Source of the DNA: Cavenderia fasciculata
Taxonomy: Eukaryota > Evosea > Eumycetozoa > Acytosteliales > Cavenderiaceae
Assembly (NCBI RefSeq): GCF_000203815.1
Contig: NW_004457718.1
Span: 682,001-746,000 of the forward strand
Direction of reading: 5' to 3'
Length of the DNA: 64,000 nt
Shown here: positions 36,139 to 58,888 of the stretch, piece by piece
Numbering within the stretch: position 1 is the first letter of the stretch
Layout of the letters: each line of letters opens with the position of its first letter
The notes under the pieces: model-generated
The model's input: only the letters and a program-made list of their open reading frames with translations
What the model was told of the DNA's origin: nothing
Database searches by the model: none
Translations under genes and position numbers: made by a program

Positions 36139-36770
36139 ATGTCTTCTTCTTCTTCTTCTTCTTTAACTACTACACAATCATTGCTAGAGTTGGTTGGATT
36201 CAAATCATTGACTAGGTTTGACAAGACTGCGCTATACGCATTATACGTTGGATTGTTTGGTAGTAGTATGTAGCTAGTTGTATCATTCACACATCATATG
36301 ATGTGATATCAATATCTATCTATCTATCTAACTCACTACCTTTCTTTTATGTGTGTTGATTCTAGAATTAAGGGAATGTAATAGAATTGGAATAGACTTT
36401 CAAATGGTGAATGGAGTCGATGTGATTGGATTCTTTCATGAGAATATGCTTCAATTGAATCGATTCCTCCCTGCACTGTATAATATGATTGAAGAGGTGA
36501 GACTGAGTATTCCTCTATGCAAGAAGCTTGCCACACCAACTGTACTCGGACAACTATTGGATATGGCAAAACATCAGAATGTAGTAGAGAGTAGATCTAC
36601 CTTTTACCCATTGACAGAGTATCAAGCTGATCGTGTATTCATCTATACTCTATCACGTAGTATACAAGCTTGTCTAATTGAATTAATTGGTCTAATATTA
36701 CCTCATTGTATGTAGTAGTATAAACATATATGTATATTTTATATTTAATATCTATATTTATATTTATATT

Positions 36771-36809
<39 letters not shown>

Positions 36810-37723
36810 TCCAAGATATCAATGAAATACCATTTAAAAAGATTATAAAGTATGCTGGAAGAGGAGGATACCCTGTTGAAATCATGGTTGCTAGTAAATT
36901 GGCAGGACTTTTATTGGATCGTCCGAGCAAGGAGATGGCACTGTTGGCCGTACAGAATGGTGTACATAGTTTGTTTCTAAAACAATTGCGACATGATCAA
37001 AGAGGTGAATTTTGGAAGTTAAAAGTAGCACTCTATCGAATGATCATTGTTCATTTGGAGGGTGAAGAGAATACTCGAAAATACTTTACTGATCCACAAG
37101 ATTTAAAAGATGCACTCGTCATACTAAACGACACTAACCAAATCAGAAGACTATACTATCTCAAAGTACCACACCGTGTCATGGGTGCTCAAAGTCACAA
37201 CAATTTCAGAGAGATGGTGTTTGGATCATTGTACGGATTATTTAGTGGATTCATATATGGTATATTAAGGAAAAAGTTTGATTACAACAATAATAATAAT
37301 ATTAATAATAATAGTAGTAATCATTCAAATTCAAATTCAAATTCAACAATGTCAGCATTACAGTATGGATTAATATTGGGAATGAGTTGGATGGCATTAA
37401 GATCGATTAGATTTATATCAGTACTGCATTTTAGTTTGATGAGGCGTATCTACACAACGAGATATCTTAGACTGCTCGATGTACTCGTTCTAGACTACCC
37501 AATGTATGTCACCAAATACATGTTTATCAAGAATTATCCTATTGTCGAATCACTCTACACACTCTTGATTGTAGGGTTAGGTCTCATACGACAAAAACAA
37601 AATCATTCAATGTATAATATTTATTTAGAGTCGCAGTACTACCAATCATATCGATCAAAATCAACATTAAAAGATTATAAAAAGCCAGATAATAATCATA
37701 TTGACCTAGATATCAATATTTAA
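36139..37723 (+). CDS. Array copy 1: ARM-like/transmembrane family protein
   Basis: Exons 36139-36265, 36366-36707 and 36810-37723, 460 residues. Exon 1 opens with a Ser run. Exon 2 is helical (LPALYNMIEEVRLSIPLCKK resembles an armadillo helix). Exon 3 keeps the family opening (DINEIPFKKIIKYA, GYPVEIMVASKLAGLLL), but the glycine-rich membrane block is shifted and an Asn/Ser insertion (about 37288-37350) splits it. It is the most divergent member with an intact frame. Intron 2 contains a long AT dinucleotide run. The frame closes exactly. Function unknown; membrane anchoring is inferred from hydrophobic segments. Confidence 0.75.
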
Positions 37724-37798
37724 CAAAACAACCAATGTAAATAAATAATATTAATGTAAATAATATATACAAAAATAAATTAATTAAAATTTCTGTTT

Positions 37799-37812
37799 TC
37801 AAGACGAGTCTT
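37799..37812. promoter_or_regulatory. Inverted repeat upstream of array copy 2
   Basis: CAAGACGAGTCTTG has 6-bp arms around GA, about 114 bp before the copy 2 start codon. It resembles a dimeric binding site, but it is not shared with the other copies, so support is weak. Confidence 0.25.
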
Positions 37813-37925
37813 GAGGAGAGGATCTTTCTTTTTAGCTATTTTGATTATAATGCAATAGTTTAGAGATATATATATATATATATCTATAGATAGATAGGAA
37901 GAGTCAAAGAGTAAAGAGTAAAGAG

Positions 37926-39471
37926 ATGGTGAAGATTATTCTCGAGAATAATGTAGTGACTATGATACATGCTGGGGTAGGTCGAATGATAGGTCGTATA
38001 ACAACAACCAAAACATGGGATTATATTGGGTTTCAAAGTATATTGGATTCATTCACATCGAGACACAAGATTGTAAAGATTGCATTATCTCTATTTTTTG
38101 TTTATTCTGTTGGTGAGAGTATGTACTCTTTATTGTAATGAATCAAACTATAGTTATACTAAACTACTACTTTTTTTTTTTTTGTTTGTTAGGAATATTG
38201 TTAACATATAAAAATGTTAAAAGATCACAAAGACAATATGAAATAGCCAAACAAGTAGTTGAACTAATGAATATGATACCTGATGAATCTCAAAACGATT
38301 ACAACTCGTTGGTACTCAGTTTACTTAATCTCTCTAATCAAGATTATCGTGTCAGAAAACTAATGGCGACCCGTCAATCAACCAAAATCCTCATTCAAAT
38401 CACCTACACATACATACGAGCCTACTACAAGGCAGTACGAGGAACACAACCATCAGAGACACAAATCGATACTGTCTTTATCCGATTACTCTATTCTGAT
38501 TTAACTTCATCTGCTGCCATGTCACTTTTAAATAATTTACTTTATCATTGTAAGTATTAAAAGAGAGAGGAGAGTAGAGTAGAGTAGATTTGAATTAATT
38601 ATATTTATTATTTGTTAATTTGTTTATTTATTTAGTTGATAAAATTGAAGATATACCATTTGAAGATATGATGTATTTAGTAAGAGAAGGAGGATTTCCA
38701 ATGGAAGTGATGGTAGGAAATGTATTGGCAAACTTTATCTTATCGAGGAATAGTATAAATGTGATTAGATTGTACTTTTATCACGGGATACATACTCTAT
38801 TTTTTAAATTACTTGCGTCAGAGGTTGGTAATCAATTTGATACCATTAGAAAGGCAACTAAAATGATGGTATATGAAATTGGTAGAATTGAAGATCGTCG
38901 TCGTATATCCTCTTCTTCTTCTTCTGATCAGTTACATCCAATGTACAAAGATGATGATGATGCTATGCGTCAAATGTATGATAGTATTTCATTTTTGGGA
39001 CCTGTCCCAAAGTTTATTCACAAGTTTTCAGTTGACCATCGCGAAAGATTATTGTCAATTGTATTATCTACACTTATCTCATTTTCATGTGGTGCTACTT
39101 TTGGTTGGAAATATCACGGTGGATCAATTAAACATTCTTTGATCGTCGGTACGGTATGGGGAACACTCAGATTATCTCGATCTCTTCTAATGGAATACAG
39201 CGATCGTATGACCAAAGATAATCCCAGTCTTCCACAAATGGTCCTTCAAATGGGTGTCGTCGCACCACTCTGCTTTTTAAATATGTTGACATTACTTACA
39301 TTCCCTCGAATAGGGTTCCATGTCGGACTATACCTACTCGAAAAGAACGATCAATGGTCACGCGGTTACCGAAAGTTTAGGTATCTCCAAAATCAATTAT
39401 ACAATGAATTTAAATCTAAAATATATATTGATACATTCAACACACCAATTCCAAATGCACTTAAAGAATAA
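37926..39471 (+). CDS. Array copy 2: ARM-like/transmembrane family protein
   Basis: Exons 37926-38118, 38193-38549 and 38636-39471, 461 residues with the frame closing exactly. Exon 1 ends in a hydrophobic helix (IVKIALSLFFVYSVGE). Exon 2 reads as ARM-like helices and contains RGTQPSETQ, shared with copy 3. Exon 3 has GGFPMEVMVGNVLANFIL, a Ser-rich loop, then the membrane block SCGATFGWKYHGGSIKHS and a second hydrophobic segment. The tail YRKFRYLQNQLYNEFKSK is conserved across the family. Function unknown. Confidence 0.8.
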
Positions 39472-39737
39472 CTAACTAATATAATATACACTTTTGTAAA
39501 AATAAAGAAAAAATAACGAGCTTTAAGGCTTTATCACAAGTCAAATTCGACGTATCTTCACTTTTCGCAAGATAATTATTCTTTATTATAATTATTCTTT
39601 GCACAAAGACAACATGATGATGATGATGTGCCGTAAACCAACATATGCATGATGATTAAGTATTTTTATACATATAATATATATATATTATAGATAGATA
39701 ATAGAGATATAGAGATATATAGTCAAGAGAGAAGAAG

Positions 39738-41195
39738 ATGATAGACTTTGAAAGTATAGTAGGTCAGATGACACTTGAAAGAGTGTTGGATTATTTTGGG
39801 TATCATACTTTATTCAAACCATTTGAACCTCTTAAAGAAAAGATTTCATGTTCAATACTCTTGGTTGGTATGGTTGGGTATAGTAAGTGTGCACATTATA
39901 TTAGTTAATATAGATTGATTGATTGGTTATTAACTTATATGTTGTTGTTTTTTTTAGAAACATACCATACATATCTTACTGTAAAAGCTTTAAAGACACA
40001 CAAGGCGTTTGTAGAGCAATCTATAGAACAGTTAAAGGCACCCGATGTAACATCTAGTCCTCAAATGTTAATAACTGTCAGAAATCTATTGATGCTTGCC
40101 AATAACCATACAGAGTTGTCAAAGAGATTGGCTAATCGTGAGATGGTTCAAATACTACTCAACCTGAGTCAACAATACATGGACAATACCATTTATAATG
40201 TTAGAGGTACTCAACCATCAGAAACCCAATTCTCTACTCTCTTTTACGCATTCCTATATTCCGATATATCACCCATTTCATTGGTCAGTCATATAATATA
40301 TTATTGTAAGTAAACTCTGTGAAACAAACAATCAAACAAAACAATATAATATAATAATAGTTATTTATTTACTTTTCAATTTCTAGTTGATAATATTAAA
40401 GATATACCATTTGAAGATATATTAAAATTGGCTGATCATGTTGGATTTCCAGCTCAAGTTTTAATTGGCAATATGTTGGCTACATTTCTTTTAATTAATA
40501 ATCATGTTGTTGAATTGTATACTCTATACAAAGTACACTTGTTATTTTTTAAATTGATTAAACATGAGGTTGGCAATGAGTTTTTAAACATTCGACAGGC
40601 AACTAGTCTATTGGTACGTAGTATCGATCGCAAAGAGTATACTTTATTGTTTGCACCATACCAAGAAGATGCTCTTGCCATGTCTAGGCAAATCATCCGT
40701 GTACCTCAATTCCTCATCAATTACTCTGTCAATTATCGTATGTCATTCAAGTGGATTGCTCTGTCATCATTGATATCATTTGCATGTGGCTCTGCATTTG
40801 GTTGGAAACATCATAACGGATCAATTAAACATGCTTTGGTCGTAGGTGGAGTGTGGGGAGCTCTAAAGTTTACAAGATGGGTTATATTGGATCGTGTTGA
40901 AACCTCACTCAAAGACTACCCAACCCATTGGAATACTGCACTCCAAGCAGTCATTTATACACCCTTTTATTTCTTTAGTATTAGTCGGTTCACGTCGAAT
41001 ATGTTACCAGAAATATGCTACCGTATAGGGCACTCACTCTTCAACACCTACGACAGAACATCTTGGAACTATAGAAAAAGGTTGTATTTACAAAGTGATT
41101 TGTATCAACAATTTAAATCTCGATTCCTTATTGATACAGCCCAACAATTCCCTCCTGACAACAATAACAATAACATCAATCTCGAGATAATATAA
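39738..41195 (+). CDS. Array copy 3: ARM-like/transmembrane family protein
   Basis: Exons 39738-39882, 39958-40305 and 40387-41195, 433 residues. It is closest to copy 2: both share RGTQPSETQ in exon 2, and FACGSAFGWKHHNGSIKHA here matches the copy 2 membrane block. The tail is YRKRLYLQSDLYQQFKSR. A trailing Asn run (NNNNNNIN) precedes the stop. Copies 2 and 3 look like a recent duplication. Function unknown. Confidence 0.8.
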
Positions 41196-41722: not shown

Positions 41723-43030
41723 ATGGATTTTATTTTCGATATAATGTGGTTTGGTTTTATCTGTTTGATTCACAATGGCATACGTGAGTAATAGTAAAAA
41801 ATTGGACAAATTATAGATAAATAATTAACATTTCACTTTACAGATTTCTATATATTAAAAAATGATCATCAAACAAACAATTTTGAAGAGGGATCAGTGG
41901 ACCACTTGTTCCAAATGGTAAAGGAAGGTCACCAATCTCAATTTAGGTATGCCAATGCTAATAATTTGAAATCAATGTGTGCAATGGCACAAGTTAACAT
42001 TGAACGACGCCACCAAGAACTTCAAGACGCTGCAACTGGGCTTTCCAATCAACAATGGGACAACAGTTTTCATCGTTACTTGACTTGTTCAACTGAATCA
42101 AAATCTATTTATATCATTCTCAAACTTTTACCATATATAGGTAAGTATGTGTAGATCTACACAATCAATTTATAAATATATAAATGTCTAATTAAAAAAA
42201 TATTTATATTATTTAGGAGATGAAAATGAAACTTTTATTATTATTTCAATGTTAATGCAAATAGTCGAGAATGGATCGTATCCCGAAGAGATATTGGTAG
42301 CAGAAGGACTTGCATCACACCTTTTAACAAACTATAGTTCAAGGTTGGCAGATATTTACTTTTTAACCAAAGTTCACAAACTCTTTCTAAAGATGCTCAG
42401 ACACGAAAAAATTGGTGAGTTCTCTTGCATACGAAGAGCAGCAGTTGCATTCTTTAATGAATTTGGTCGTTTAGGCACCTTCTATGGCACAACATTAAGA
42501 TTCTCCGAAGAAGAAATCAAAGAAGGAATTGCTCTACTTCAAAAGCCCGATTGGTCATCCCTCCCATTTTGACTCGATTCTACTACTTGATACGTGAAGA
42601 CCAAGACAATCGTTGGAGAAAGCAACTTGTAAATTTTGTATTTTGGTTGGTGTTTTCAATCAGTGTATTTTGGTCAGATGGTATCACTTTAATCATCAAT
42701 TCCCTTTTCATTTGTTGGGGCATAGAATATTGTGTGGATATGATACTTCATACTGCCAGCTACCATAGAAAAATGAATCCAACGGGTTGGAGAATTTTGT
42801 TAGAGGCTTTCTTGTTCACACTACCCATGATGATTGCAATCTTTTTGTCGACGGAGTCATTTATATGGGTAGTAGTTCAACAATTTGTTTTCAAAATGGT
42901 CGTCCCTTTATACGAGGATTTCAACAACAAAACAAGTTTTAAATCATTTTATAAAAATGATTTGTACTTTCAATATAAAGATTCATTCAAGTCTAAAATA
43001 TCTGATGGTTTCACAACAAAAATAGAGTAA
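41723..43030 (+). pseudogene. Array copy 4: frameshifted family member
   Basis: Exons 41723-41783, 41844-42140 and 42217-43030. Exon 3 is open in the family frame to a TGA at 42570-42572. The homologous sequence then continues from about 42551 in another frame (PPILTRFYYLIREDQ ...) to 43030, so a single indel lies near 42545-42560. Copies 5 and 6 are continuous here. The marker GSYPEEILVAEGLASHLL groups it with copies 5 and 6, whose membrane part lacks the FGCG..GWR motif. It is either a recent pseudogene or a sequence error, since the rest is undamaged. Confidence 0.75.
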
Positions 43031-43208: not shown

Positions 43209-44644
43209 ATGGAAGAAAATCAGAGCCTTATTGAAACTGTGTTGATTATTTGGGTTTTTGTTTTGATTTATTTTTGTGGATGTAAGTAGTATTGCAAGAA
43301 AAGAGTATAAATTAAAAGAGAATAAGTAATTAGAACTAAGTGTTGTTTTAATTAATTAATTTATTTCTATATAGTCTTGCGATTGAAAAGATTTAAACAT
43401 TTTGTAAATGTTTCAGCAACCAACAATCATGTTGTAGGAACATTCGAACATTCAGTAGAATCCATCTTCCAAATGGTACATAATGATCCATCATCTAAAT
43501 CCAATCAATCTGCGATTGACGTTTTAGAATATTTATTGTCAGAGGCAAACTTGAAAAAGAAACGACGTATTAGATACATTGAAGAAATAGCCCTTGGATT
43601 GTCAGATCTTCAATGGGATGTCCTACTTGATTATTGTTTGAAAAATTCTACCGAATCAAAAGTTATATCAATCCTATTTAAAGTCTTACCATTCATTGGT
43701 ATGTATCATACATAGATTCCTCATAATTAATCTAGTGGCACTCACTTACTTAATCATGAACAATTATTTGTTCTTTTTAAGACATATCCAGGTCATTTTT
43801 TATTATTGGTCTTTTAAATAATATTTTAGAATTGACCAAACCATCATCATCATCTTATCCTGAAGAGATATTGGTGGCCAATGGGCTTGCAATACACCTT
43901 TTAACCAACTTTAGGACTGATATGGTAGACCTTTACTATGAGGCAAGAGTTCACTCTTTATTCCTCAAGATGCTTAGAAATGAAACAAATAATGGTGAAT
44001 TTAATATAGTACAGAGGGCATCTATTTTATTCTTTAACAAATTTGGTTATCATGACATTAAACATAGTATCAAAGGATTCTCAACAGAAGAAAAAACACA
44101 AGCTCTTGTACTTTTAGACAGCCATTATCAATCCTGCAGTAGTCTGATCATCCCTTCATCTTTTATTCGTCTCTATTATCGATATAATAGTGATAAAGAA
44201 AACCCATTATTCAATCAACAGTTTGTCTTGGTATTTTGGTTTCTGTTTTCAATTAATTTCAGTCCTTGCAATGATGATGGAGAAACAACAGTCTATTCAA
44301 GAGTCAACCTCTTTTTATTTTATGCTACCATTGAATATGTATTGAACAAGGTTTGTGCATATACAAAAGCATTGACAAAAAGGAATATGACCGATTGGAG
44401 ATTCATTCCGGAAGCAGGCTCTATTTTTCTTCATTTCACAACCATTGCATTTTATTTCATCTTCAATGTGCTTGTTGATACAAAGTATAGAGTATGGACG
44501 TTAGTCTATGTGTTTTTGCAAACTATCTACCCCTTTATTCTCGATGGATACAGTAATGATCACATTCAACCTTATTTTAAGAATCTTGCTAAATACAAAG
44601 ATTCTTTCAAACCTGTACCCGATGGTTTCACCTTTGTACAATAA
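43209..44644 (+). CDS. Array copy 5: family member of the SYPEEI sub-group
   Basis: Exons 43209-43281, 43375-43698 and 43782-44644, 419 residues. Exon 1 encodes a short hydrophobic helix (TVLIIWVFVLIYFCG), likely a signal anchor. Exon 2 is helical (ALGLSDLQWDVLLDY). Exon 3 has SYPEEILVANGLAIHLL, VHSLFLKMLRNE and several hydrophobic segments (FVLVFWFLFSINF and AFYFIFNVLV), ending KYKDSFKPVPDGF. It resembles copy 4 closely and supplies the reference frame that shows the copy 4 indel. Function unknown. Confidence 0.8.
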
Positions 44645-44689
44645 TAAATAAAATGTAATTATTTATTTTAAAGATTATTATCTAGAAAA

Positions 44690-46726
44690 TCAAATACTCC
44701 AGAACCATAAAGAGATCGGTTTGAAATGGTATACTTGATCTTTAAGTTTCTTTTGTATATCCCATTTGAAATGATTATTTAATTTGTGTATTCTCTTTTT
44801 TGGAATGATTATTATTTTTGGCGATAGCTGGTTGTCAACGATGACGGCGGTAGTCTTGTGCTCCCATAGAGAGAGACACTTGTCTATTTTAATGACAGAT
44901 AGTTTTGACTTGGGTCCTACACTTGATTGGAAAGAGGTGAGTAGTGCTGACGACACTAGATCTAGATGATCATTGGAATTGTCGGCAACAACATCCTTCT
45001 TTTGAGTACAACAATGGTATGGTTCAATTGTCGATCCAATTGACAATTCTTGAATGGCTTCAGAGTTTTGAACCAAAGATTCAAGTGCCTTTTTAATTTG
45101 ACCAAGTTTTGATGCCAGATGAGTGAGTTCCTCCAAATCATAAATACCCCTGTACGCCTTGGCAGTTGTAGATATATTGTTGTGACCGCCACCGCCGGCG
45201 GTTGTTGAACAATCATTGTATACAGTGACGAGTGGCAACCATGCATTTAGTTCATGTTGAAGAGTATATGAAAAATGTGTGATTGTGCTGTTGGCCGCTG
45301 TTTCAAGGTATGTCAATAGTGCCACTGAAATCGATGTTGTCGCCGAGACCTTTTTACACAATCCACCACTATCAGTCTTTGGAGAGATGGAGAATTTGAA
45401 TCGAGTCAACAATGGCAAAGAGTCGAGACAAGAGGTGAGATCGATCGGTTCAATGTACTTGATTTCCTTTAAAGTGAGGTTACTGAGTGCTTTGAGTGTT
45501 GAGATTTGTCGCAATAGATTGTGGACTTGAATGTCTGTCTTTACACGATTTTGCACCTTTTCAAAGAGTCGTTCGATTGTCAGTGACGTCAAGTTGGTAA
45601 ATACATCGAGTCGTGAATGTGATGCATCGACAATATTGCTCTCATCGGGTGAGTAGCAGTTGATAAGACGCAAACGTCTCAACTTGTCCTTGTTTAGTAT
45701 TGACCTTGCCCACCAGTTGGGGTCTTGTACCACGTCATGCTCGTACTCTGCCAAGTGGCTGTTGAGCTGGATTTTGAGGTCACGTAGGTTGGTCATTGAG
45801 TTGAACCACACCTGAGACACGAGGAATCCGCCATACGACTCGATACCACCAATCCAAACATACTTTTCTAGTTTGGCGAGTGGCGCCAGTACATCCATTG
45901 TATGCTCGTGATTGTCAACAAACGGGTTCATAGTGCCGGATATCTTGATAGCCAACTCACAAATTAAAGGCATTGAATCCAACAATCGGAGCAGGACATC
46001 GTTGTCTAGTCGCGACCAATTGGTCGGGTAGATGCAAAGTCGCTCTAATTGCTTGCAAGTGGATTGCAGCCCTTTGAGAAGCGATTCGTTGATCTCGACA
46101 CTGTACAAAGTCAGACGACACAATGTAGCAGATGCCAAGCCAATTGACGAAAACACTAAAGCATTGACACTTTGAGGCAGTTGTTGACCTGGTCGTTGAA
46201 TGAATACCTTGAGTGTACGGATATTCAAGAAGGTATTCTTGTCATGGTTGACCGTGACCGTATCGGTTGTTGTTGTTGTTGTTGCTGTAGATTGTTCTTC
46301 ATTATCCACCAACAACAAGAAGGCAAGTGATTGGACGAGTCTATTCAACGGCATGGATGTCGGTTGTGTGACAGTCTGAAAGAATGATTTGATTCTTTGG
46401 AGCACTGGTTTCCCATAGTGTACTGTGTCGTGGTAGGGCACCATGTACCGGTATTCGAGAATAGTATGAGGGATGATACGTCCAGCCCAATAGGTGCAGA
46501 CCAGGAACAATCTGACAATATTTGATCGGTCATTCACTCTACTTGCATAGCGATATGCATCGACGTTGGTTGACCTATCTTGGCCTCCTTTAACCCCATC
46601 TCTGGTGTCCAAGTGACATGAATAACCTAGTTGCACTAATCGCAAGATACCAATAACTAATCTATCTGGTAACCCAACTTGATTGTTATCTATTCGTCTA
46701 GTATTATCTTGTTGTTGTTTGTTCAT
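44690..46726 (-). CDS. F-box/LRR-like protein, antisense within the array
   Basis: Single exon, 678 residues. The N-terminus has an F-box-like helix set (GLPDRLVIGILRLVQLG, then IVRLFLVCTYWAGRII). The rest consists of irregular leucine-rich repeats (LCRLTLYSVEINESLLKGLQ; LRDLKIQLNSHL; LRRLRLINCYS). The stop lies 45 bp from the end of array copy 5. F-box proteins recruit substrates to SCF ubiquitin ligases through Skp1. Dictyostelids carry many divergent ones, so a substrate cannot be named. It is the only non-family gene inside the array and faces the other way. Low-complexity sequence is limited to short Thr and Gln runs. Confidence 0.7.
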   Translation of the reverse strand: MNKQQQDNTRRIDNNQVGLPDRLVIGILRLVQLGYSCHLDTRDGVKGGQDRSTNVDAYRYASRVNDRSNIVRLFLVCTYWAGRIIPHTILEYRYMVPYHDTVHYGKPVLQRIKSFFQTVTQPTSMPLNRLVQSLAFLLLVDNEEQSTATTTTTTDTVTVNHDKNTFLNIRTLKVFIQRPGQQLPQSVNALVFSSIGLASATLCRLTLYSVEINESLLKGLQSTCKQLERLCIYPTNWSRLDNDVLLRLLDSMPLICELAIKISGTMNPFVDNHEHTMDVLAPLAKLEKYVWIGGIESYGGFLVSQVWFNSMTNLRDLKIQLNSHLAEYEHDVVQDPNWWARSILNKDKLRRLRLINCYSPDESNIVDASHSRLDVFTNLTSLTIERLFEKVQNRVKTDIQVHNLLRQISTLKALSNLTLKEIKYIEPIDLTSCLDSLPLLTRFKFSISPKTDSGGLCKKVSATTSISVALLTYLETAANSTITHFSYTLQHELNAWLPLVTVYNDCSTTAGGGGHNNISTTAKAYRGIYDLEELTHLASKLGQIKKALESLVQNSEAIQELSIGSTIEPYHCCTQKKDVVADNSNDHLDLVSSALLTSFQSSVGPKSKLSVIKIDKCLSLWEHKTTAVIVDNQLSPKIIIIPKKRIHKLNNHFKWDIQKKLKDQVYHFKPISLWFWSI

Positions 46727-46992: not shown

Positions 46993-48422
46993 ATGGAAGA
47001 GATAATGGAAGAGATACTACAACTATTCAATCATGGGAGGAGTTTTACCGAACTATTAATAGTCCTCTTTACCCTGGCTATAATATGGATCCCTGTTAGT
47101 ATGTATGATTGATGATCATGCATGATTATGTATGATTGATGATCATGATTGCATATGTTGATATGGTGCACGTTTCTAACTATCTCTCTCTCTTTTTGAA
47201 TATTAGAATATGTAGAGCTGAGTGAAACACATGAAAAGGAGATCATAACATATCAACAAGATGGAGATGATCGACACAAAGTTAACTTCCTCTACTACTC
47301 TAGAGAGTACCAGACATCATTATTTCGATCATTTGCCGATCATCCTACAATACGTCGAATCAGTGAAATAGCATCGACAACAATCAGAGATCGCAACCAA
47401 ATCAGAGACGTGCAAAGATCTGGATCATCAAATTACCAGTTAGATCAACTCTTTACCGATACTATAACCATTTCAACTGAATTTAGATCTCTATGTGTTA
47501 TCTTTGGATTATTACCTTTTTGTAGTATGTTATAACATAAACACGTTTAAATGAATGAATGAATAGATAAATCTAACAGTTCTTTTATTATTATTTAGAA
47601 AATAATGAAGATTTGGATGTATCAATATTAAGACTAGTTGATTTGACTCGTCAATCAGGTGAATGGTCGTATCCAGAAGAACTGATTGTATCGTATGGTC
47701 TGGCATTACACCTCTTATCAAACTATAATTCTCAATTGGTTGATGTATACTTTGCAACTTGTGTGCCATCACTATTTTTAAAGATTCTCAGACACGAACA
47801 ATCAAATGAATTCAAGGTGATTCAAAGAGCTACTTATATATTATTAAAAGGTATTGGTCGTAAAAATATTGATCGTACCTTGTCACTAGAGGTAGAAGAA
47901 AAAGAACAAGCTTGCAAGATAATACGTCTAACTCAACCAATCAGTCTAATCCCTCAACCTTTAATACGAAGATACTACAAATTTTGGTCAGATTATAATG
48001 AAGATATTCCATACTTGGGTAGTGGTATATCATTTTGGTTTATTTTCTTATTGATTGATTACTTTTTGCCGTTGGGTGAACAGACTGGTAAATCAATCAT
48101 GGCAACTATTTTCTTGTTTGGTCTTTACTCAACATTGGAAATCATTCTTTGGACAATCAATAATATTGCCAGAAATTTAAGAAAAAGAGAAACAACCAAA
48201 AAGACATGTAAAATACAAGCGGTAGTCGTTATTATGGCAGAGGCGTGTATCGTAACATGTCTTTTCTTGACATGTTATAGAATGGATATTTGGTGGATCT
48301 ACATTTCATTTAAATTAATCTTGTACCAACTTAATAGGTGGTTTGTTAGGAATACATTCCTCCGATCATTCTTTAATAGTGATTTGTATAAACAATATAG
48401 ATTAAAATTTAAACAAGATTAA
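46993..48422 (+). CDS. Array copy 6: family member of the SYPEEI sub-group
   Basis: Exons 46993-47098, 47207-47524 and 47599-48422, 415 residues with exact frame closure. Exon 1 ends in a hydrophobic helix (ELLIVLFTLAIIWIPV). Exon 3 has SYPEELIVSYGLALHLL, CVPSLFLKILRHEQSNEF and hydrophobic segments (GISFWFIFLLIDYF and WIYISFKLILY). The tail is FNSDLYKQYRLKFKQD. It is separated from copies 4 and 5 by the antisense F-box gene. Intron 1 carries a GATGATCATG repeat. Function unknown. Confidence 0.8.
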
Positions 48423-48791: not shown

Positions 48792-50273
48792 ATGAATATT
48801 TTATTAAAGGCAATCAAACCAACATCTATTACACTTGCAGGGATGGTGCATATTGAACCTATAGTCAACTTTTTAGTAAATAGTAATCGTTATGTCGTAC
48901 CATCATACCTGTTATGTGTATTTGGATATAGTAAGTACTACCTAAATTAATGAATGAATGAATAGGTCAATAGAATATTAATATCTATATATTTATAGGA
49001 TTATACAAAATTAATAAGTCTATGCTTGTACCTAGAGACATTGATGGTGAAAGTCAAGTAGAACAATTTGCTACGTTGTTGGAGAACAATGATACAATGA
49101 AGAGTACTCTACAGGCACTCTATTACATCTGTGGAAACAACGATCCAATGTGTAAAAGGTTAGCACATCCTCGTCTTGTCAAAGCTTTGATTGACGCCTC
49201 TCGACTAGTCACTTTATGCAGATTTACAACAGTGACAACAAATATTTATAGTACCAACCCAAAGACACGAGACAAGGCTATTGAACAACTATTCTATGAC
49301 ATTCTAACGTCTGATGAAAAATACAACATGTTTACCATCTCTTCCCTATTACCTTATCGTAAATATTCATTCATTCATCATTTTCAAAAAGATTAATATT
49401 ATTTATTCGTTCATTCTCTCTTGTATTTATTATTATATAGTTGAAATTGATGATATACCAATGGATGAATTAATGGGGTATTGCGAACTGGGATTTCCAA
49501 TTCAAATTCTAGTTGCAGAGTTGTTGTCCAAATATTTAGTATCGGAATATAATAACCGTCGCTTGTCAATACTTTATTTCAATACTCCACTCCTTGCTAG
49601 TATGTTTCTAGGATTGATTTGGTTTGAACAAAAGAATGAATGTTCTGTGATTAAAAAGGCGGCTGTTATCATGTTTAATCATGTTGGTAAAGAATTAATT
49701 GATAATACCGATTTATTGGATGACAATGAAAAGATGGCAGCTTACAGTCTGTTGAAAGAGGGTTGGTGGACCAACAATCAACTATCAAAATCCATCAACA
49801 AGATATTGGTAAAAAACGAATTGTTTGTTCAAGATTTGACTGCCAACACATTGATTTGGTTTGGTTGTGGTATGGTATGTGGTTGGAGACAACTAGGTGG
49901 AGGTGGAGGTGGAGCTGGATCAATCAAATATATTGTAGGTATGGGATTAGGGTACGCCGCTGCAGAGATTACACGATCAATTGTCAAATACTCAATTGAT
50001 GAGCGACGAAAGAGCAATGTCAACCATTTAACAACTGTTCTCCTTGCTGCCATTAGCGTACCATCTTCTTACATGTACATCTCGATGCTCAAGATATCAC
50101 CCATTCCAGTTCTACTCTTACACCTTGGTAGATATCTCTATACCACCTATCAGAAAGGAATACAATACAGAAAGGTACAAACACATTTACAAAACAATGA
50201 ATTGATGGACCATTACAAACAAAAGATCATAAATGTTAGTTCAGAATTCAAAGGTTCAAAGCTTGAAAAATAA
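48792..50273 (+). CDS. Array copy 7: intact reference member of the FGCG sub-group
   Basis: Exons 48792-48930, 48999-49358 and 49441-50273, 443 residues. Exon 1 ends in a hydrophobic helix (RYVVPSYLLCVFGY). Exon 2 looks ARM-like (STLQALYYICGNNDPMCKRL). Exon 3 continues with helices (FPIQILVAELLSKYLVSEYN) and then the membrane part: LIWFGCGMVCGWRQ, a Gly run, SIKYIVGMGLGYAAAEITRS, LTTVLLAAISVPSSYMYI and IPVLLLHLGRYLY, ending in a basic/amphipathic tail. It is the only undamaged member of copies 7-11. A glycine-rich helix pair plus ARM-like helices suggests a membrane-anchored scaffold. That is inference, and no function is known. Confidence 0.85.
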
Positions 50274-50548: not shown

Positions 50549-50983
50549 ATGGATAAATTATTGCAATCAATCAAACCATCGATTACACTTGAAGGTTCAT
50601 TCATTCAAACATGTTCCGTTCAAAAAGATGAAAACATTATCTATTTATTTACAAATATTAATTTAATATCTTTATCTAGTTGAAATTGATGATATACCAA
50701 TGGATGAATTAGTCGGATATTGCTTGGTTGGAGGATTTCCAATTCAAATTCTAGTTGCAGAGTTGTTGGCTAAATATTTAGTATCGGAATACGACAATCA
50801 ATCATTGTCAATGCTTTATTTCAATACTCCTCGAGTCGCTGCTCTATTTCTAAGATTGATTTGGTTTGAACAAAAGAATGAATGTTCTGTCATACGACAG
50901 GCAGCCATTATCATGTTTAATCATGTTGGTAAACAAGTAATTGATAATACTGATTTGTTGGATGACAATGAAAAGCTGGCAGT
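50549..50983 (+). pseudogene. Array copy 8, 5' part: exon 2 deleted, broken at inversion
   Basis: Exon 1 begins MDKLLQSIKPSITLEG and then stops matching the family. The next sequence matches intron 2 of copy 7 (TTCATTCATTCA followed by a TTCAAAAAGAT string), so half of exon 1, intron 1 and exon 2 are gone. Exon 3 resumes at 50680 (EIDDIPMDELVGYC) and runs to LLDDNEKLAV, where homology ends abruptly near 50983. The remaining half of exon 3 lies inverted at 51530-52056. Upstream sequence matches the region before copy 9, confirming a tandem duplicate. Confidence 0.8.
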
Positions 50984-51187
50984 CGATAACAAGAGTGATG
51001 GGACGACATAACGATTATTAATCAACATGTCGACTATATGTTCAATTCGTTCACTTGCAATTGACTGTGTATTTTGATTGACAACTAAAAGGTTGTTGAC
51101 TACTGTATACTGGGTTGCAGGTTTGATTGATTTAAGTACTGTCTTTAGTACTTTTTCTAGTACTATTTCTATCTCCTCTACCACCAT
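50984..51187 (-). pseudogene. Array copy 9, exon 1, in inverted orientation
   Basis: The minus strand encodes MVVEEIEIVLEKVLKTV, then IEHIVDMLINNRYVVPSLLL, which aligns with exon 1 of copies 10 and 11. Homology ends at about 50986, where copy 8 exon 3 sequence begins on the other strand. The missing end of this exon (CVFG plus the GTAAGT donor) is found on the plus strand at 52057 onward. Its upstream palindromes (51254-51266 and 51306-51322) are inverted with it. An insertion of about 15 residues relative to copy 10 is present. Confidence 0.8.
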
Positions 51188-51253
51188 CTCTCTCTCTCTC
51201 TCTCTATTTGTTAAGGTATAAGCATCAATTACAACAACAACAAACAATCTTTG

Positions 51254-51266
51254 TCATCGTTGATGA
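51254..51266 (-). promoter_or_regulatory. Shared upstream palindrome of copy 9, inverted
   Basis: On the minus strand it reads TCATCAACGATGA, 67 bp before the displaced copy 9 exon 1 start. The spacing matches copies 7, 10 and 11, which supports both the motif and the inversion model. Confidence 0.5.
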
Positions 51267-51305
51267 TGTACGTCATCGTTTGTTGAACCATCAAAATCGA
51301 TTAAA

Positions 51306-51322
51306 GTGAACTGCAAGTTCGC
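51306..51322 (-). promoter_or_regulatory. Second upstream palindrome of copy 9, one arm degraded, inverted
   Basis: On the minus strand it reads GCGAACTTGCAGTTCAC. This matches the perfect GTGAACT-TGC-AGTTCAC of copies 10 and 11 except at the first two bases. It has decayed further before copy 8 (near 50470-50490). Confidence 0.4.
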
Positions 51323-51529
51323 GTGAATAAACAAAGGGAACAACCAACCCCTTTAGATGACATTGATCAATCTTCCTCCATCATAAATAGATAGATATAA
51401 ATAAATATATGTAACTAAGTAAAATATTATTTAAATATTGCAATGAACTAATAAAAGTTAATGCAACAAATTTAGAAAATGAACTTCTTCTTGGGGTTTG
51501 CAGTATTATAATCAAATTTGAGCTTTTAT

Positions 51530-52056
51530 TTATTTTTGTTTAAGGTAAGCTTTGAATAATTCTGAACTAATGTTTAATGTCTTTTGTTTGTAGTGCACCA
51601 TCATTACACGGTTTTGTAAATATGTTTGTAACTTTTTGGTTTGTTTTCCATCGTGCCAGGTGGTATAGAGATATCTACCAAGGTGTAAGAGTAGGATTGG
51701 AATTGGTGATACCTTGAGCATAGAGATGTACATGTAAACATGTGGGACACCAATGGCAGCAAGGAGAGCAATTGTCAAATGGTTGACATTACTCTTTCGT
51801 CGCTCATCGATTGAGTGATTGACAATTACTCGTGTCATCTCTACTACAGAGTACGCTAATCCCATACCGACAATATATTTGATTGATGATCCTCCACCAT
51901 GTTGTCTCCAACCACAAGCCATACCACATCCAAACAAATCAAACCGTTGGCAATGACATTTTGAATAATCAATTCGTTGTTTACCAATATCTTGTTGATC
52001 GATTTTGATAGTATATTGTTGTTGTTATTGGACCAACGCTTTTTCATCACACTATA
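51530..52056 (-). pseudogene. Array copy 8, 3' half of exon 3, in inverted orientation
   Basis: The minus strand reads YSVMKKRWSNNNN ... ILSKSINKILVNNELIIQNVIANG, followed by a one-base deletion (ATTTGTTTGG where copy 7 has ATTTGGTTTGG). In the next frame it reads FGCGMACGWRQHGGG through the usual membrane block to LLLHLGRYLYTTWHDGKQ and the stop at 51530. Besides being detached from its 5' half, it is therefore also frameshifted. The loss of function seems certain unless the inversion and the deletion are both artefacts. Confidence 0.8.
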
Positions 52057-52159
52057 TGTGTATTTGGACATAGTAAGTACTACCCAATGATCATCTTTGA
52101 TAGATTATACATTAATGTCTATAGATATTAATATTAATATATCTCTTTCTTCTTTAAAG

Positions 52160-53422
52160 GATTATACAATGTAATATGTGAAACTAAAAAGCAATGGCCT
52201 ATTCTTGTACCACGAGATCGTGAGAAGGAAATAATACAAGAGTATTCCTCTTCATTGAGAGATTTTGATAAAATGACTCAAACTATCAACAACATGTTAT
52301 ATTTGGTTCAAAATAACCATGCAATGTGTAAAGTGTTGGCCAATCGTAAGATAGTAATGGACCTGATAGAGACTTCAAAATTGATCACAAAGATATCATT
52401 TGCAAAGGTGACCCGTGATAAAACCAATCTCGGTATAGCATTCATACGTGCAATGTGCGTTGAAGAAGCACGTGTCATTAACATCATTTCTGCCCTTTTA
52501 CCTCATTGTAAGTAAACACATTGCTTTCAAAGATTATACGTATACATACATATTTATTTACCAACCAAATCATTTCCCCATTATTTTAATCCAACTAGTT
52601 GAATCTATCCATGATATACCAATTCAAGAATTGGTTGGGTATTCCAAGATTGGAGGATTTCCAATTGAAATTCTTGTTGCTGAAATGTTGGCCAAATATT
52701 TAGTATCGGATTTCAATAACCATGCCTTATCGATACTTTATTTCAAATCGGGTGTTGGTAATCTATTGATAAAGTTGGCTTGTCAACAAAAAAAGATCCT
52801 TGTGATTCAAACGGCGTCGCTTTTAATGTTTGAACAAATTGGTAAAGAATTCATTGACAATACCGATTTATTGAATGACAATGAAAAAAAGGTTGCCAAT
52901 ATCATGTTTAGACACAAGTACGATTCACTAGTTAAATTAATCATCAAGAAAGGATTAAACAACAAGGATCTTTTTGAAAGTATGTTTGTTAATGGTTTGA
53001 TTTTGTTTGGATGTGGTGCGATAAGTGGTTGGAGACAGGGACTATCAATCCCTCATATTTACGATATGGGAATGCTATACTATGGTGTAGAGATGGCAAG
53101 ACAATTATTTAAATACCAAATCAAAGAACGGCTAAAGAGTCGTGTCTGTTATCCAACCATCATTCTATCTGCTGCAATGAGTGTACCATATGCTTATTTG
53201 GGCACCACTATGCTAAAGATATCACCGATTCCAGTTATACTCTTACAAATTGGTAGATCCTTATATTCCAACTATATCAGCCTCAAACAAGTCAAAAAAG
53301 CCATACATCAATTACACAATCAAGATATGGTGGTTCAATACCATCAAAGGATTCAATATGTTGGTTCACTCTTTCAAAACCCAAATAAAAAACAATTACC
53401 AAGAAGTGTCATCATGGCATAA
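52160..53422 (+). pseudogene. Array copy 9, exons 2 and 3 without exon 1
   Basis: Exon 2 (52160-52507) and exon 3 (52599-53422) are open and carry the full family layout: ARM-like helices (NNMLYLVQNNHAMCKVLANR), GGFPIEILVAEMLAKYL, then LILFGCGAISGWRQ and the later membrane segments. The last bases of exon 1 (CVFGH plus donor) remain at 52057-52074, but the start codon is now in the inverted block. Translation could only begin at an internal Met such as that at 52255. The open frame of both exons suggests the inversion is recent. Confidence 0.8.
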
Positions 53423-53543: not shown

Positions 53544-53560
53544 GTGAACTTGCAGTTCAC
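53544..53560. promoter_or_regulatory. Perfect palindrome upstream of copy 10
   Basis: GTGAACT-TGC-AGTTCAC, 7-bp arms with a 3-bp spacer, about 100 bp before the start codon. It is identical before copy 11 and near-identical before copy 9. It resembles a binding site for a dimeric regulator. Confidence 0.5.
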
Positions 53561-53585
53561 ATTTTATTTTAATTAAACGACATCA

Positions 53586-53598
53586 TCATCAACGATGA
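53586..53598. promoter_or_regulatory. Shared upstream palindrome, copy 10
   Basis: TCATC-AAC-GATGA, 63 bp before the ATG, followed by CACAGATTGTTG. Confidence 0.5.
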
Positions 53599-53660
53599 CA
53601 CAGATTGTTGTTGTTGTTATCTTATCTCTTTCAAGTTAACAAATAGACCGATAGAGAGAG

Positions 53661-55093
53661 ATGGAGATAGTATTAGAGGCAGTATATAAATCAATCAAAC
53701 CATCGATTACACTTGCAGGAGAGCATATTGAACCTGTATTCAACTTTTTATTAACTAATCGTTATGTTGTACCATCATACTTGCTATGTGTATTTGGAAA
53801 GAGTAAGTATTACCTAATTAACTTAATGTTGGTTGTAATAATTATATATTAATCATTTTTCTACTCTTTCTTTCTTTTTATCTCTCTCTATTAATCTAGG
53901 ATTATACAGTATTAATAAGGCTATGCCAACTAGTCTTGTAAAAGGTGTTGGTGTAGATCAGGTAGAACAATTTGCTACGTTGTTGGAGAAGAATGAAACA
54001 ATGAATACTACTCTAGAGGTACTCCATTTCATCTGTGGAAACAACTACCCTATGCTTAAAAGGTTAGCACATCCTCGTCTTATCAAAGCTGTGATTGCCG
54101 CTTCACAAACAATCACTGTATTCAGACTTGCAACAGTGACAACAAATATGTATCGTGCGGACCCAGATACAAAGGAGCAGGCTATTGAACACCTATTCTC
54201 TGTCATTCTAACATCTAATGAAGAATCCATCATGTTTATCATCTCTGCTTTATTACCTCATCGTAAATATCATTCATGCAATCGCATTCATTTTGCATGC
54301 CAACAAGATTATTTATATTTACCAATCAATTATTCTTTTATTTATAGTTGAATCTGTTGATGATCTTCCAACCCAAGAATTCATGGAGTATTGCATGATT
54401 GGAGGATTTCCAATTCAAATTCTAGTTGCAGAGGTGTTGTCTAAATTTCTCATCTCTCAATACAACAATCGTAACTTGTCAATGCTTTATTTCAACACTC
54501 CAAAACTTGCTGGTCTATTCCTTAGATTGATTTGGTGTGAACAAAAGAATGAATGTTCTCTCATTAAAATGGCAGCTGTTATCATGTTTAATCATGTTGG
54601 TCAAGAAGTAATTGATAATACTAATTTGTTGGATGACAATGAAAAGATGGCAGTATATGGTTTGTTGAAAGAGGGTTGTTGGACTAATCAACTATCAAAA
54701 TCCATCAACAAGATATTGGTAAACAAGGAATTGTTTGTTCAAGATTTGACTGCCAATACATTGATTTGGTTTGGATGTGGTATGGCTTGTGGTTGGAGAC
54801 AAGGACTATCAATCAAATATATTGTAAGTATGGGATTAGCATACTCTGCTGCAGAGATTACACGATCAATTGTCAAATACTCAATTGATGAGCGACGAAA
54901 GAGCAATATCAACCATTTGACAACTGTTCTCCTTGCTGCCATTGGTGTCCCACATGTTTACATGTACATCTCGATGCTCAAGATATCACCCATTCCAGTT
55001 CTACTCTTACACCTTGGTAGATATCTCTATACCACCTGGAACGATGGAAAACAATACAGAAAGGTACAAACACATTTAAAAACAATGTATTGA
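53661..55093 (+). CDS. Array copy 10: family member with frameshifted C-terminus
   Basis: Exons 53661-53802, 53900-54262 and 54348-55093, 416 residues. It is very similar to copy 7: the same RYVVPSYLLCVFG exon 1 end, LRLIWCEQKNECSLIKMAAV, and the membrane block LIWFGCGMACGWRQ without the Gly run. Near 55077 a base present in copy 7 is missing (CATTTAAAAAC against CATTTACAAAAC). The frame then stops at 55093 instead of continuing to about 55160, and some 22 residues of the tail are lost. All membrane segments remain, so the product may still work. Confidence 0.75.
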
Positions 55094-55196
55094 TGGACAA
55101 TTACAAAGAAAACCTCATGGACATTAGTTCACAATTCAAAGGTACCTTGAAAAAGAAATAAATAAATAAAAAATAATGATGATTCGTCAGAGACCT

Positions 55197-55213
55197 GTGA
55201 ACTTGCAGTTCAC
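55197..55213. promoter_or_regulatory. Perfect palindrome upstream of copy 11
   Basis: Same 17-bp GTGAACT-TGC-AGTTCAC element as before copy 10, here about 143 bp before the start codon because of an AT-rich insertion. Confidence 0.5.
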
Positions 55214-55266
55214 TTTACACATTTTATTTAATTAAATTAATTATTATTAAATGATAAACGACATCA

Positions 55267-55279
55267 TCATCAACGATGA
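55267..55279. promoter_or_regulatory. Shared upstream palindrome, copy 11
   Basis: TCATC-AAC-GATGA, 77 bp before the ATG, followed by CAGATTGTTG. Confidence 0.5.
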
Positions 55280-55355
55280 CAGATTGTTGGTCTTGTTATT
55301 GTTATTATCTTATCTCTTTCATTTAACAAATAGATAGATAGGATAGGATAGAAAG

Positions 55356-56836
55356 ATGGAGATAGTATTAGATAAAGTATTAAAGTCAATCAAACCATCA
55401 ATTACACTTGCAGGAGAGCATATTGAACCTGTCATCAACTTTTTATTAAATAATCGTTATGTTGTACCATCTCTCTTGCTAGGTGTATTTGGAAAGAGTA
55501 AGTACTACTACTACCCACATTAGATAGATCGCCAATATCTATAGATAGATATTCACCTTTACATCTCAATTTATAGAACTATACAATATTAATAAGCAAT
55601 GGCCTGATACTCTTGTACCTCGAAATATGGGGATTGAAACCATAATCCATGAATATTCCTCTGCGTTGAGAGATTTCTTTACAATAGATCAAGCTGGTGA
55701 AATACTGTATGACATAGCCCGCACTAATCATGCAATGTGTAAAGTGTTGGCCGATCACAGAATAGTCCTTGGTTTGATCAATCTTTCAAAATTAAATAAC
55801 AAAAAGGTGATTACAAGGAAGATTCGTGATAAGCTCCCTCTTGACAGAGTATTCATGCTCTCTTTTGAAGAAGCAACCAACAACATCTACACCATCTCTG
55901 CTCTTTTACCTCATTGTAAATATCACAACTATCCACATTCTTTTAAAAAAACGATTATAAATATAATATATTTACCAACCTAATCCTTCTTTATTTCTAG
56001 TTGAATCTATCGATGAAATACCAATCCAAGAATTAATAGATTATTGTAGGGCCGGTGGATTTCCAATTGAAATTCTGGTCACTGAAATGTTGGCTAAATT
56101 TCTAATATCGGAATACGACAATCATGACTTGTCAATACTTTATTTCAATACTCTGGGCCTTGCCAAGCTATTCTTAAAGTAGATTAGATATGGACAAAAG
56201 AATGAATTTCATGAATTCGCCGTCATTCGACAAGCAGCTATTATCATGTTTGGACATGTTGGCCAAGAATCAATTGACAACTCTGTTTACCTAGATGACT
56301 TTGAAAAGTCGGTTGCTAATATCTTGTTGGAAGTAGAGCCTGGACAACTATCAAAATTCATCGACAATATATTGGTAAACAATGAAATGCTTGTTCAAAA
56401 TATAACTGCCAACGGTTTAATTTGGTTTGGTTGTGGTTTGGTTTGTGGTTGGAGACAACTAGGAGGAGGTGGAGGAGGACCATCAATCAAATATATTGTC
56501 GGTATGGGAATAGGATACGCCGCTGCAGAGATGACAAGACAACTTGTCCAATACCAAATCGATAAACAACAAAAGAGTAATACTTATTATTCAACTGCTG
56601 TTCTCCTTGCTGCAATGAGTGTACCACCTGTATACATGTACATCTCGATGCTCAAGGTATCACCTATTCCAGTACTACTATTACACCTTGGTCGGTATCT
56701 CTACAACACCAACTATATCAACCTAAAACCAACCAAAAAAATGATGTTACATGTACAAAACCAATATTTGATGGAAGAATATAGACAAAGGATCGATGGT
56801 GTCATCTCTTCATTCTGTCAAAAATTATTACATTAA
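55356..56836 (+). pseudogene. Array copy 11: nonsense mutation in exon 3
   Basis: Exons 55356-55497, 55577-55915 and 56001-56836 splice in frame and would give 438 residues, but codon TAG at 56180-56182 interrupts exon 3. Copies 7, 8 and 10 have a hydrophobic residue there (LFLRLIW against LFLK-stop-IRYG), so a single change of TTG or TTA to TAG explains it. The sequence after the stop is otherwise intact, including LIWFGCGLVCGWRQ and a Gly run. That points to a recent loss, a polymorphism or a base error. Confidence 0.8.
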
Positions 56837-57019
56837 CTTTCATAATATCATAAATAAAATTGAATCAATGCAAGGTTAACAGTCCATAATATTATTTTTT
56901 ATTTTTAACTTGTATTATCAAGAAAAGTTTACATTACATTTAAATGACTAACAAATAGTTTAGTTGTAATTTAATTAATTAATTAATCTGTATTTATATA
57001 ATATATCTATATCTATCAA

Positions 57020-58502
57020 ATGATGATGATGGAGAAGATCAATCTATTGTTTCGATCAACGATTGATCTATCATCATTTAAACAAATAACAGAGTTTTAT
57101 AATTTAAATCGACGTATGGTTAGACTATTGCTTTTATGTTTTGGAATAGGTAGGTAATCATTCTTTATCATCATCATCCTCAATACCCCGATCAAACTAA
57201 CTTTGTTTCTCTATTATTAGAATACTTGATAAAGCATAGATATTTTAAAGCATTGAGAGATGAAGTATCAAAAATAGACATTGCAGATACACTTACCGGA
57301 CAATTACTTGGAGCTGAAGAGGGAAATACAACCAGACAAATATTGACACATATATATGATCTTGCTAATAACAGTTCTCTGGTTTGTCAACGACTAGCTA
57401 GATCACAATTGTTTATCAATCAACTCATTGAAACATTACATACAATCACACAAGAACGTTATCAAGCTATAAAACGATCAGGACCATCTAATCAGTATCA
57501 AATAGATATAAACTTTTACCCATTCATGATGAATGATTGTGAAAGAAGAATAATGAAAATATTTAGTTTGGTATTACCTCATTGTAAGTTGTTGAACAAC
57601 AGTTATACAACTACTATAATACTTTAATATTCATTTGTTTGTTTTGTTTTAATAATGATTTAGGTGAATTTATTAAAGATATACCAATTGATTTAATATT
57701 GGAATATGCAGATGAATATGGTTTGCCAACTGAAATAAGAATTGGAAAGCATCTTGCTCATTCTATTGTATCAAATTATAATAATCGAGATTTGGCAGTG
57801 TATTATTTCCAACACCGAGTATCATCTTTATTCCTAAAGTTGTTACGAAACAAAGTAAGGAATGAATTTGAAGTCATTGAAAAGGCTGCCATCATCATGT
57901 TTGGTCATGTTGGTCATTCCCAGATCGATGAGAGCAATATGATATTAGATAAATTGGAAAAAGAACAAGCTCATCTCCTATTGTCAACCGTATCTGGGTC
58001 ATATATAAACAAGATTGGAAATATAGTTTCAAGACCAATCGATAAATTTATAGTTGATCATGGAATACTTTTGAAACAACTGGTTTTCAGAAATATGGTA
58101 TCTCTAAGTTATGGGTTGACTTATGGTTGGATTAATAAAGGTGTGGGAGATGGAGGAATAGGAGATAGATCCATTCTTTCAATGGGATTAATGTTTGCCG
58201 CAGCAGAGTCGGTAAGAGTAATCCTACAATATCAAGTAAAAGCGATTGAAAGGATACATCCCGGTCGTATGATGGTATTGTTAGACTCTGCATTGTATAT
58301 TGCACCTAGGTGCACCTATTTCTTTGGTTGGTTTAATTGGCGTCCCTATCTCTTATCAAAGTGTGTAAATATCTTTTCAAGTCATTTTGATAAACATGTT
58401 CAAAATGCTCAATCTCGATTGTATTTACAAGGTCGACTGTATAAAGATTTTAAATCAACCTTTAAACTACAATCTCAGATTGAACTAGATAATTTATTTT
58501 AA
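57020..58502 (+). CDS. Array copy 12: divergent intact family member
   Basis: Exons 57020-57149, 57221-57583 and 57664-58502, 443 residues with exact frame closure. Exon 1 ends in a hydrophobic helix (MVRLLLLCFGIG). Exon 2 is helical (ILTHIYDLANNSSLVCQRLA). Exon 3 has FIKDIPIDLILEYADEYG, SSLFLKLLRNKVRNEFEVIE, then LSYGLTYGWINKG in place of FGCG..GWR, GDRSILSMGLMFAAAESVRV and the SRLYLQGRLYKDFKS tail. It lacks the upstream palindromes of copies 7-11. It groups with copies 1-3 by its tail. Function unknown. Confidence 0.8.
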
Positions 58503-58613
58503 TGTACAAAAAAAAAAAAATAAAGATTTTTGTTTACAAAGCAATCAAATCAAGGGCAACTCGAAAAAGAAATAAACTTATTCTATCTATTTATTTATTT
58601 ATTTATTTGTTTG

Positions 58614-58888
58614 ATGGAATTTACATTAATATTGAAATCATCAATTAAATCTACATTTGATTTAATCTTTGTTAAACATTATGCAAGGATTGTACTACCG
58701 TTATTGGTAACAGGTGCTCTTTTAAAATTTAGGTACGACAATATGTTATATAAATAGATTATTTCCATCATAATTTATTGATTGATTCAATTGATTGTAT
58801 TAAACGTCGATTGGACCTACACAACCAACGTCGTACAACTCAATTATACGAGGAAAGTAAACTTTATCAACAATATAAATCAAGTTGA
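58614..58888 (+). pseudogene. Array copy 13: truncated relic
   Basis: An exon-1-like frame (MEFTLILKSSIKSTFDLIF, then LPLLVTGALLKF) is followed by a GTACGA donor. About 60 bp later comes a segment matching only the family tail (QRRTTQLYEESKLYQQYKSS) with a TGA at 58886. Exon 2 and nearly all of exon 3 are missing, and no AG acceptor lies just before the tail. A large internal deletion is the simplest explanation. Without splicing, a 75-residue frame ending at 58757 remains open. Confidence 0.65.

Follow-up and report, generated by a model that had tools for sequence, protein, structure and literature searches.

A stretch of 64,000 nucleotides from Cavenderia fasciculata (contig NW_004457718.1, positions 682,001 to 746,000 of the forward strand; hereafter the window) carries on its plus strand, between positions 36139 and 58888, a tandem array of 13 homologous loci. 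As judged from sequence searches, these belong to a gene family that is real, without a name, and found here only in C. fasciculata. The explanation favoured here, which is held tentatively and leans on predicted structures, is that the family would encode membrane-anchored solenoid adaptors with a diversifying partner-binding half. The thirteen-copy tandem array had been proposed in a first-pass annotation made from the letters alone and was borne out by direct reading of positions 36000-59200 in combination with splice models. That the copies are homologous follows from genome searches, in which one member used as query detects others at levels well beyond chance; copy 2 finds copy 3 at E 7.8e-55, copy 7 finds copy 10 at E 6.4e-125, and copy 5 finds copies 6 and 4 at E 1.1e-26 and 2.3e-21, respectively.

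The genes are built from three exons in 11 of the 13 copies (1-7 and 9-12, exon 1 of copy 9 being cut in two), and for ten of them (1-7 and 10-12) a three-exon model from the start codon onward was constructed. All modelled array introns are of the GT-AG type with lengths of 60-108 bases, and both introns interrupt the frame in phase 1, that is, after the first codon base, in every intact copy. An intact three-exon frame, coding for 415-461 amino acids, is present in seven array copies (1, 2, 3, 5, 6, 7, and 12), while six are broken by a frameshift, a stop, an inversion, or reduction to a fragment. The earlier claim of a common exon count holds for 11 copies, with copies 8 and 13 lacking the full set, and that of a common intron phase for the introns modelled. 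A common upstream architecture, which had also been claimed, was examined within one subgroup, where six members share 39-83% DNA identity over 150 bases upstream. Runs of GATA preceding the start codons were not counted as a family feature, since they are also found before another gene of the window.

Outside the window, the genome (31.0 Mb in 21 contigs) was searched with exons 2 and 3 of copies 2 and 7 as well as with exon 3 of copies 1 and 5. Together with the 13 array loci, four further copies bring the family to 17 loci, 11 of them intact; these counts are lower bounds, and the remaining hits, weak at E 1e-4 or worse, were not included. Two of the additional copies are located on the minus strand approximately 3-6 kb beyond the window end (on C8, the contig that contains the window, at about 748.8-751.8 kb), and one each is found on contigs C5 and C18. 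All four give intact three-exon models with introns in phases 1/1.

No named domain could be assigned, in accordance with the first-pass annotation, and the profile searches on which the novelty of the family could have foundered gave no clear family match in either Pfam or NCBIfam. In Pfam, nothing exceeded the cut-off, the best score being that of RMI1_N_N (E 0.008; 17.2 bits versus a cut-off of 23). The best NCBIfam hit, CrcB (E 0.0056, in one of seven members), and the best hit among the sequences of the Protein Data Bank (E 0.076) were weak and were dropped. Word-based searches of 5.8 billion proteins with three queries returned proteins of C. fasciculata only (2, 3, and 1); the last of them missed P0001, although this protein was part of the query, and relatives in other dictyostelids may exist. 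A viral origin was considered and rejected, with no relative in IMG/VR or phage records, where contig searches detect close relatives only, and no match to predicted viral structures at E 0.001. A bacterial origin was likewise rejected, with no relative in prokaryote genomes by contig searches of the same limited reach. In open-licence papers, no literature on the family was found. According to one survey, C. fasciculata possesses 78 lineage-specific expansion families comprising 1077 genes (PMC8535579); the array family is of the same kind and may be among them.

Concerning the protein, the predicted model has an anchor helix at the N-terminus, followed by an ARM/HEAT-like solenoid and, towards the C-terminus, by four helices of membrane type, with moderate confidence (mean predicted local distance difference test score, pLDDT, of 68). 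Exon 1 is predicted to encode the short anchor helix, exon 2 and the start of exon 3 the solenoid, and the remainder of exon 3 the four membrane-type helices plus a tail. Both models that were predicted are, at moderate confidence, all-helical without beta strands, with four long helices each. The hydrophobic segments noted in the first-pass annotation were supported by a membrane-helix scan, for which hydrophobicity values with a home-made weighting were used; it scored the anchor in 10 of the 12 proteins having exon 1, the exceptions being copy 10 and the C5 member. The ARM-like helices proposed in the same annotation stood only as far as the predicted fold is concerned, where a solenoid appears, but had no detectable counterpart in the sequence. 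No array locus was among the 62 matches of a genome scan with PF00514, Pfam scans of the members were also free of Arm, and against an ARM profile derived from the same genome the 13 family proteins score no better than 520 shuffles. A profile of exon 2 compared with one of the exon 3 start gave E 0.1 at a probability of 0.6%, and therefore the solenoid units are not demonstrable as sequence repeats. Across 12 proteins, the stretch of 15 residues that follows the hydrophobic segment of exon 1 has a summed charge of +20, versus +3 in front of this segment, with positive charge behind the anchor in eight members and a neutral or negative value in four. By the positive-inside rule, positive charge marks the cytosolic side of a membrane, so that this pattern suggests that the solenoid faces the cytosol.

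The clearest pattern in the alignment of 13 proteins is a single core of high conservation at the exon 3 start, around which the sequence is more loosely kept. The best-conserved helices (187-201 and 214-223) lie there, with mean pairwise identities of 0.40 and 0.47, respectively; the corresponding values are 0.16 for the first two helices of exon 2, 0.31 for its last helix, 0.16-0.22 for the membrane helices, and 0.14 for the exon-1 helix. Over the 78 pairs formed by 13 proteins, identity ranges from 14 to 74%. An array that is old and still turning over, as had been supposed, accords with these values, since 70 of the 78 pairs lie at only 14-29%, yet copies 7 and 10 share 74%. The 13-protein tree and the analysis of the ratio of nonsynonymous (dN) to synonymous (dS) substitution rates left aside copies 4, 8, 11, and 13 on account of their broken frames, used exons 2-3 alone for copy 9, and took copy 10 up to its frameshift. 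Starred groups in the tree are {2,3}, {5,6,C18} with {5,C18} nested therein, and {7,9,10,C5} with {7,10}, while the placement of copy 1, which has a long branch, is unsure and five of the ten inner branches are without a star. These groups mostly unite array neighbours, as tandem duplication predicts, and the C5 and C18 members would be moved copies.

Selection on the family is purifying overall. Whole-gene dN/dS, determined by a counting method, lies at 0.41-0.68 in ten pairs, and in each of the six pairs that were bootstrapped the upper limit stays below 1. In nine of these ten pairs, dS is at least 0.74; in several it exceeds 1, where such estimates are rough. By region, the six pairs give 0.37-0.62 for the exon 3 start, 0.42-1.22 for exon 2, and 0.25-0.92 for the membrane part. 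Exon 2 exceeds the exon 3 start in five of the six pairs, the order being reversed between copy 9 and the C5 member, and this excess is regarded as a trend. The highest exon-2 value, 1.22, belongs to the pair of copies 7 and 10, with limits of 0.66-2.72, the lower of which is below 1.

Signs of exchange between copies come from the subgroup formed by copies 7, 9, 10, 11, and the C5 member. Copies 10 and 11 share 83% identity upstream and 90% in exon 1 yet only 52% in exon 2, and the exon 2 of copy 11 is closest to that of copy 9 (66%). Correspondingly, the tree of the upstream region plus exon 1 places copies 10 and 11 together (bootstrap 96), whereas that of exon 2 joins 9 with 11 (bootstrap 100) and 7 with 10; in the exon 3 tree, the split that unites 7 and 10 reaches 100 and the grouping of 9 with 11 reaches 71. 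Five topologies were compared by the approximately unbiased (AU) test. The upstream plus exon 1 data reject the exon-2 topology (AU p 0.024), with two further topologies being compatible with them (p 0.089), while exon 2 (p 9e-6) and exon 3 (p 4e-5) each reject the exon-1 topology. The conflict between the trees of promoter and exon 1 on the one hand and of exons 2-3 on the other is a sign of recombination in copies 10 and 11, which would be explained most simply by one or more exchanges that broke between the first two exons. A shared regulatory motif was also considered for these genes, namely, the near-palindrome GAACTTGCAGTTC upstream of copies 9, 10, and 11 and of the C5 member, and was rejected. 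The motif also occurs close to two C12 genes and once on C21, with seven hits in the genome versus three for the reversed control; this distribution resembles common descent combined with chance rather than a regulon. The two C12 genes (C12:1202501-1210500) are very similar to each other, approximately 2.5 kb apart, and ankyrin-like by eye, and each lies near a GAACTTGCAGTTC site.

According to the favoured explanation, the protein would be an adaptor bound to an organelle or an endomembrane, with its solenoid in the cytosol. The conserved half of the solenoid, encoded by the exon 3 start, would serve a common function, while the exon-2 half would bind partners that differ between copies and would be renewed by duplication plus exchange between copies. 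A fast-changing partner, for instance a selfish element or an effector of a microbe, might, at a guess, explain the turnover. Of the roles raised in the first-pass annotation, namely, recognition, defence, and organelle biology, none gained evidence from the analysis. Several observations weigh against this explanation. The dN/dS limits of exon 2 and of the exon 3 start overlap broadly, in two of the six pairs the membrane part exceeds exon 2, and the membrane helices are as variable in sequence as exon 2 is. In addition, the ARM likeness would be a resemblance at the level of the fold only, taken from a model of mean pLDDT 68, and the tree conflict speaks for at least one exchange that broke between the first two exons and not for a repeated swapping of exon 2. 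That the family constitutes an intracellular recognition system, in which a tandem repertoire of membrane-bound solenoid receptors would have the exon-2 half swapped by recombination and the second half kept, is an unlikely further possibility. What makes the family of interest is its defined architecture, together with the prediction, open to test, of a variable binding surface in exon 2. Should the partner be a selfish element or a pathogen, amoebae would have yielded a new recognition system; if not, the family would be one more partly decaying expansion.

The closest rival is a set of redundant adaptors under relaxed constraint, a possibility to be taken seriously even if it falls short of being probable, in which the proteins would have an ordinary job in an organelle or in trafficking and the duplicates would drift and decay with neither arms race nor recognition. 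It is in line with dN/dS values that are below 1 yet raised throughout, with the six broken array copies, and with an exon-2 excess that lies mostly within overlapping limits beside equally variable membrane helices. It accounts less readily for the exon-2 ratio of the recent pair of copies 7 and 10, although this is not shown to exceed 1, for the conflicting exon trees, which point to exchange besides drift, and for full frames being retained in 11 of 17 loci despite the large dS. Among the closest known systems are the ARM/HEAT-repeat proteins, such as importin-alpha, APC, beta-catenin, SARM1, and CNOT9, from which the array family differs in having no ARM sequence signature and a predicted solenoid framed by an anchor and four membrane-type helices. 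A mitochondrial outer-membrane adaptor comparable to animal ARMC10/ARMCX, in which an N-terminal anchor is followed by an ARM domain linking mitochondria to the transport machinery, is rather improbable. ARMC10/ARMCX proteins carry an N-terminal anchor, and the sequence of anchor and ARM-type domain is shared with the model of the array family, in which positive charge follows the anchor in eight of 12 members; the array family, however, has no detectable sequence relation to Arm, and ARMCX proteins are not known to have a four-helix C-terminal membrane domain. Both families are lineage-restricted, ARMCX being, according to PMC4776218, an ARM family of the eutherian X-chromosome that regulates mitochondrial distribution, but its origin by retrotransposition, described in the same paper, argues against a comparable case.

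Three further readings are less probable still. Genes of the wtf type are selfish or incompatibility genes whose rapidly evolving products are membrane proteins with several helices, and they spread through the harm done to cells that lack them; they are not known to encode a solenoid such as that predicted for the array family. Net purifying selection over large dS and the absence of a Pfam match over the cut-off to any family are further objections, which make this very unlikely even if the membrane-type helices, the decayed copies, the hint of exchange, and the lack of any relative found outside C. fasciculata would suit it. The likeness lies in both being species-restricted predicted membrane families with exchange between copies, since for wtf predicted transmembrane proteins, no obvious orthologues outside S. 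pombe, and pervasive non-allelic gene conversion are reported in PMC6526906. An equally doubtful case is that of allorecognition at the cell surface in the manner of tgrB/tgrC of D. discoideum, as the array-family models are, at moderate confidence, wholly helical without beta strands, and positive charge, often found behind the anchor, favours a cytosolic solenoid. The tgr proteins have extracellular beta-rich domains. The likeness is that of dictyostelid loci which lie in tandem, are in part inverted, and seem to recombine; for tgrBC, PMC12324515 records duplications and inversions along with recombination within the locus. Least probable of all is a kinship with the Tim17/22/23 import family, by which four membrane helices would have been fused to a solenoid. 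It was suggested by four helices with several well-conserved glycines and by a faint resemblance that hhalign gave between the profile of the membrane part and Tim17 proteins encoded in the same genome (E 0.021, probability 2%), but a genome scan with PF02466 led to five other loci, none of them in the array, and Pfam scans of ten membrane parts gave no Tim17 match.

The individual copies, all on the plus strand unless stated otherwise, are arranged as follows. Copy 1 (36139-37723; exons 36139-36265, 36366-36707, and 36810-37723) is intact and codes for 460 amino acids, with GT-AG introns in phases 1/1. Copy 2 (37926-39471; exons 37926-38118, 38193-38549, and 38636-39471; 461 amino acids) is also intact and corresponds to DFA_00248 in nr (P0001), whose model of 394 amino acids differs at the N-terminus from the splice model given here. 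The intact copy 3 (39738-41195; exons 39738-39882, 39958-40305, and 40387-41195; 433 amino acids) has a splice model identical to the nr protein DFA_00249 (P0002); nr names both DFA_00248 and DFA_00249 hypothetical proteins of Cavenderia fasciculata. In copy 4 (41723-43030), an exon-3 frameshift ends the first frame at 42572, and homology continues in another frame to 43030. Copy 5 (43209-44644; exons 43209-43281, 43375-43698, and 43782-44644) is intact with 419 amino acids and lies within DFA_00251 of nr (P0003), a record in which C-terminal sequence of copy 4 precedes copy 5 and a different splice is used within the latter. Here the array is interrupted by an unrelated minus-strand gene (44690-46726), an open frame of 678 amino acids without a Pfam match at E 0.001 and without a family match in the genome searches. 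It is followed by the intact copies 6 (46993-48422; exons 46993-47098, 47207-47524, and 47599-48422; 415 amino acids) and 7 (48792-50273; exons 48792-48930, 48999-49358, and 49441-50273; 443 amino acids), for the latter of which a structure model of exon 3 was made.

Copies 8 and 9 are broken together by one inversion of approximately 1.05 kb (roughly 50990-52040), for which an assembly error is the alternative; at its borders, short inverted matching words were read by eye. Copy 8 (50549-50990, right border approximate) retains the exon 1 start and, from about 50681, the first part of exon 3, exon 2 being absent, while the second half of its exon 3 lies inverted at 51530-52024 on the minus strand with 72% identity to copy 7. 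The first part of exon 1 of copy 9 is likewise inverted (51008-51187, minus strand, left border approximate; start codon 51187-51185), and the plus-strand portion (52025-53422) consists of the exon 1 end (donor after 52072; left border approximate), exon 2 (52160-52507), and exon 3 (52599-53422), with the frame open from exon 2 onward. Copy 10 (53661-55161; exons 53661-53802, 53900-54262, and 54348-55093) has a frameshift near the C-terminus, homology extending to about 55161, and copy 11 (55356-56836; exons 55356-55497, 55577-55915, and from 56001) carries an in-frame TAG at 56180-56182, with homology to 56836. Copy 12 (57020-58502; exons 57020-57149, 57221-57583, and 57664-58502; 443 amino acids) is intact, and copy 13 (58614-58888) consists of exon 1 plus a short C-terminal tail only.

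Beside the array, an open frame of 580 amino acids on the minus strand (59012-60754) matches the delta-endotoxin N-terminal domain (PF03945, E 3.6e-41). To the left of the array, family matches on the minus strand were obtained for HTTM (28787-29707), ComC supersandwich (31295-32302), and uracil-DNA glycosylase (13265-14998). A DOCK-family frame of 1774 amino acids occupies 15386-20710 on the minus strand, and the G+C content of positions 16001-20000 is 50% versus 29-38% in the remaining 2-kb steps of the window. Finally, the arms of a perfect 14-base inverted repeat are located at 27220-27233 (left arm CCCATTTCGCGACA) and 27298-27311, 64 bases apart, and the element spanning 27220-27311 is perhaps a small mobile-element remnant.

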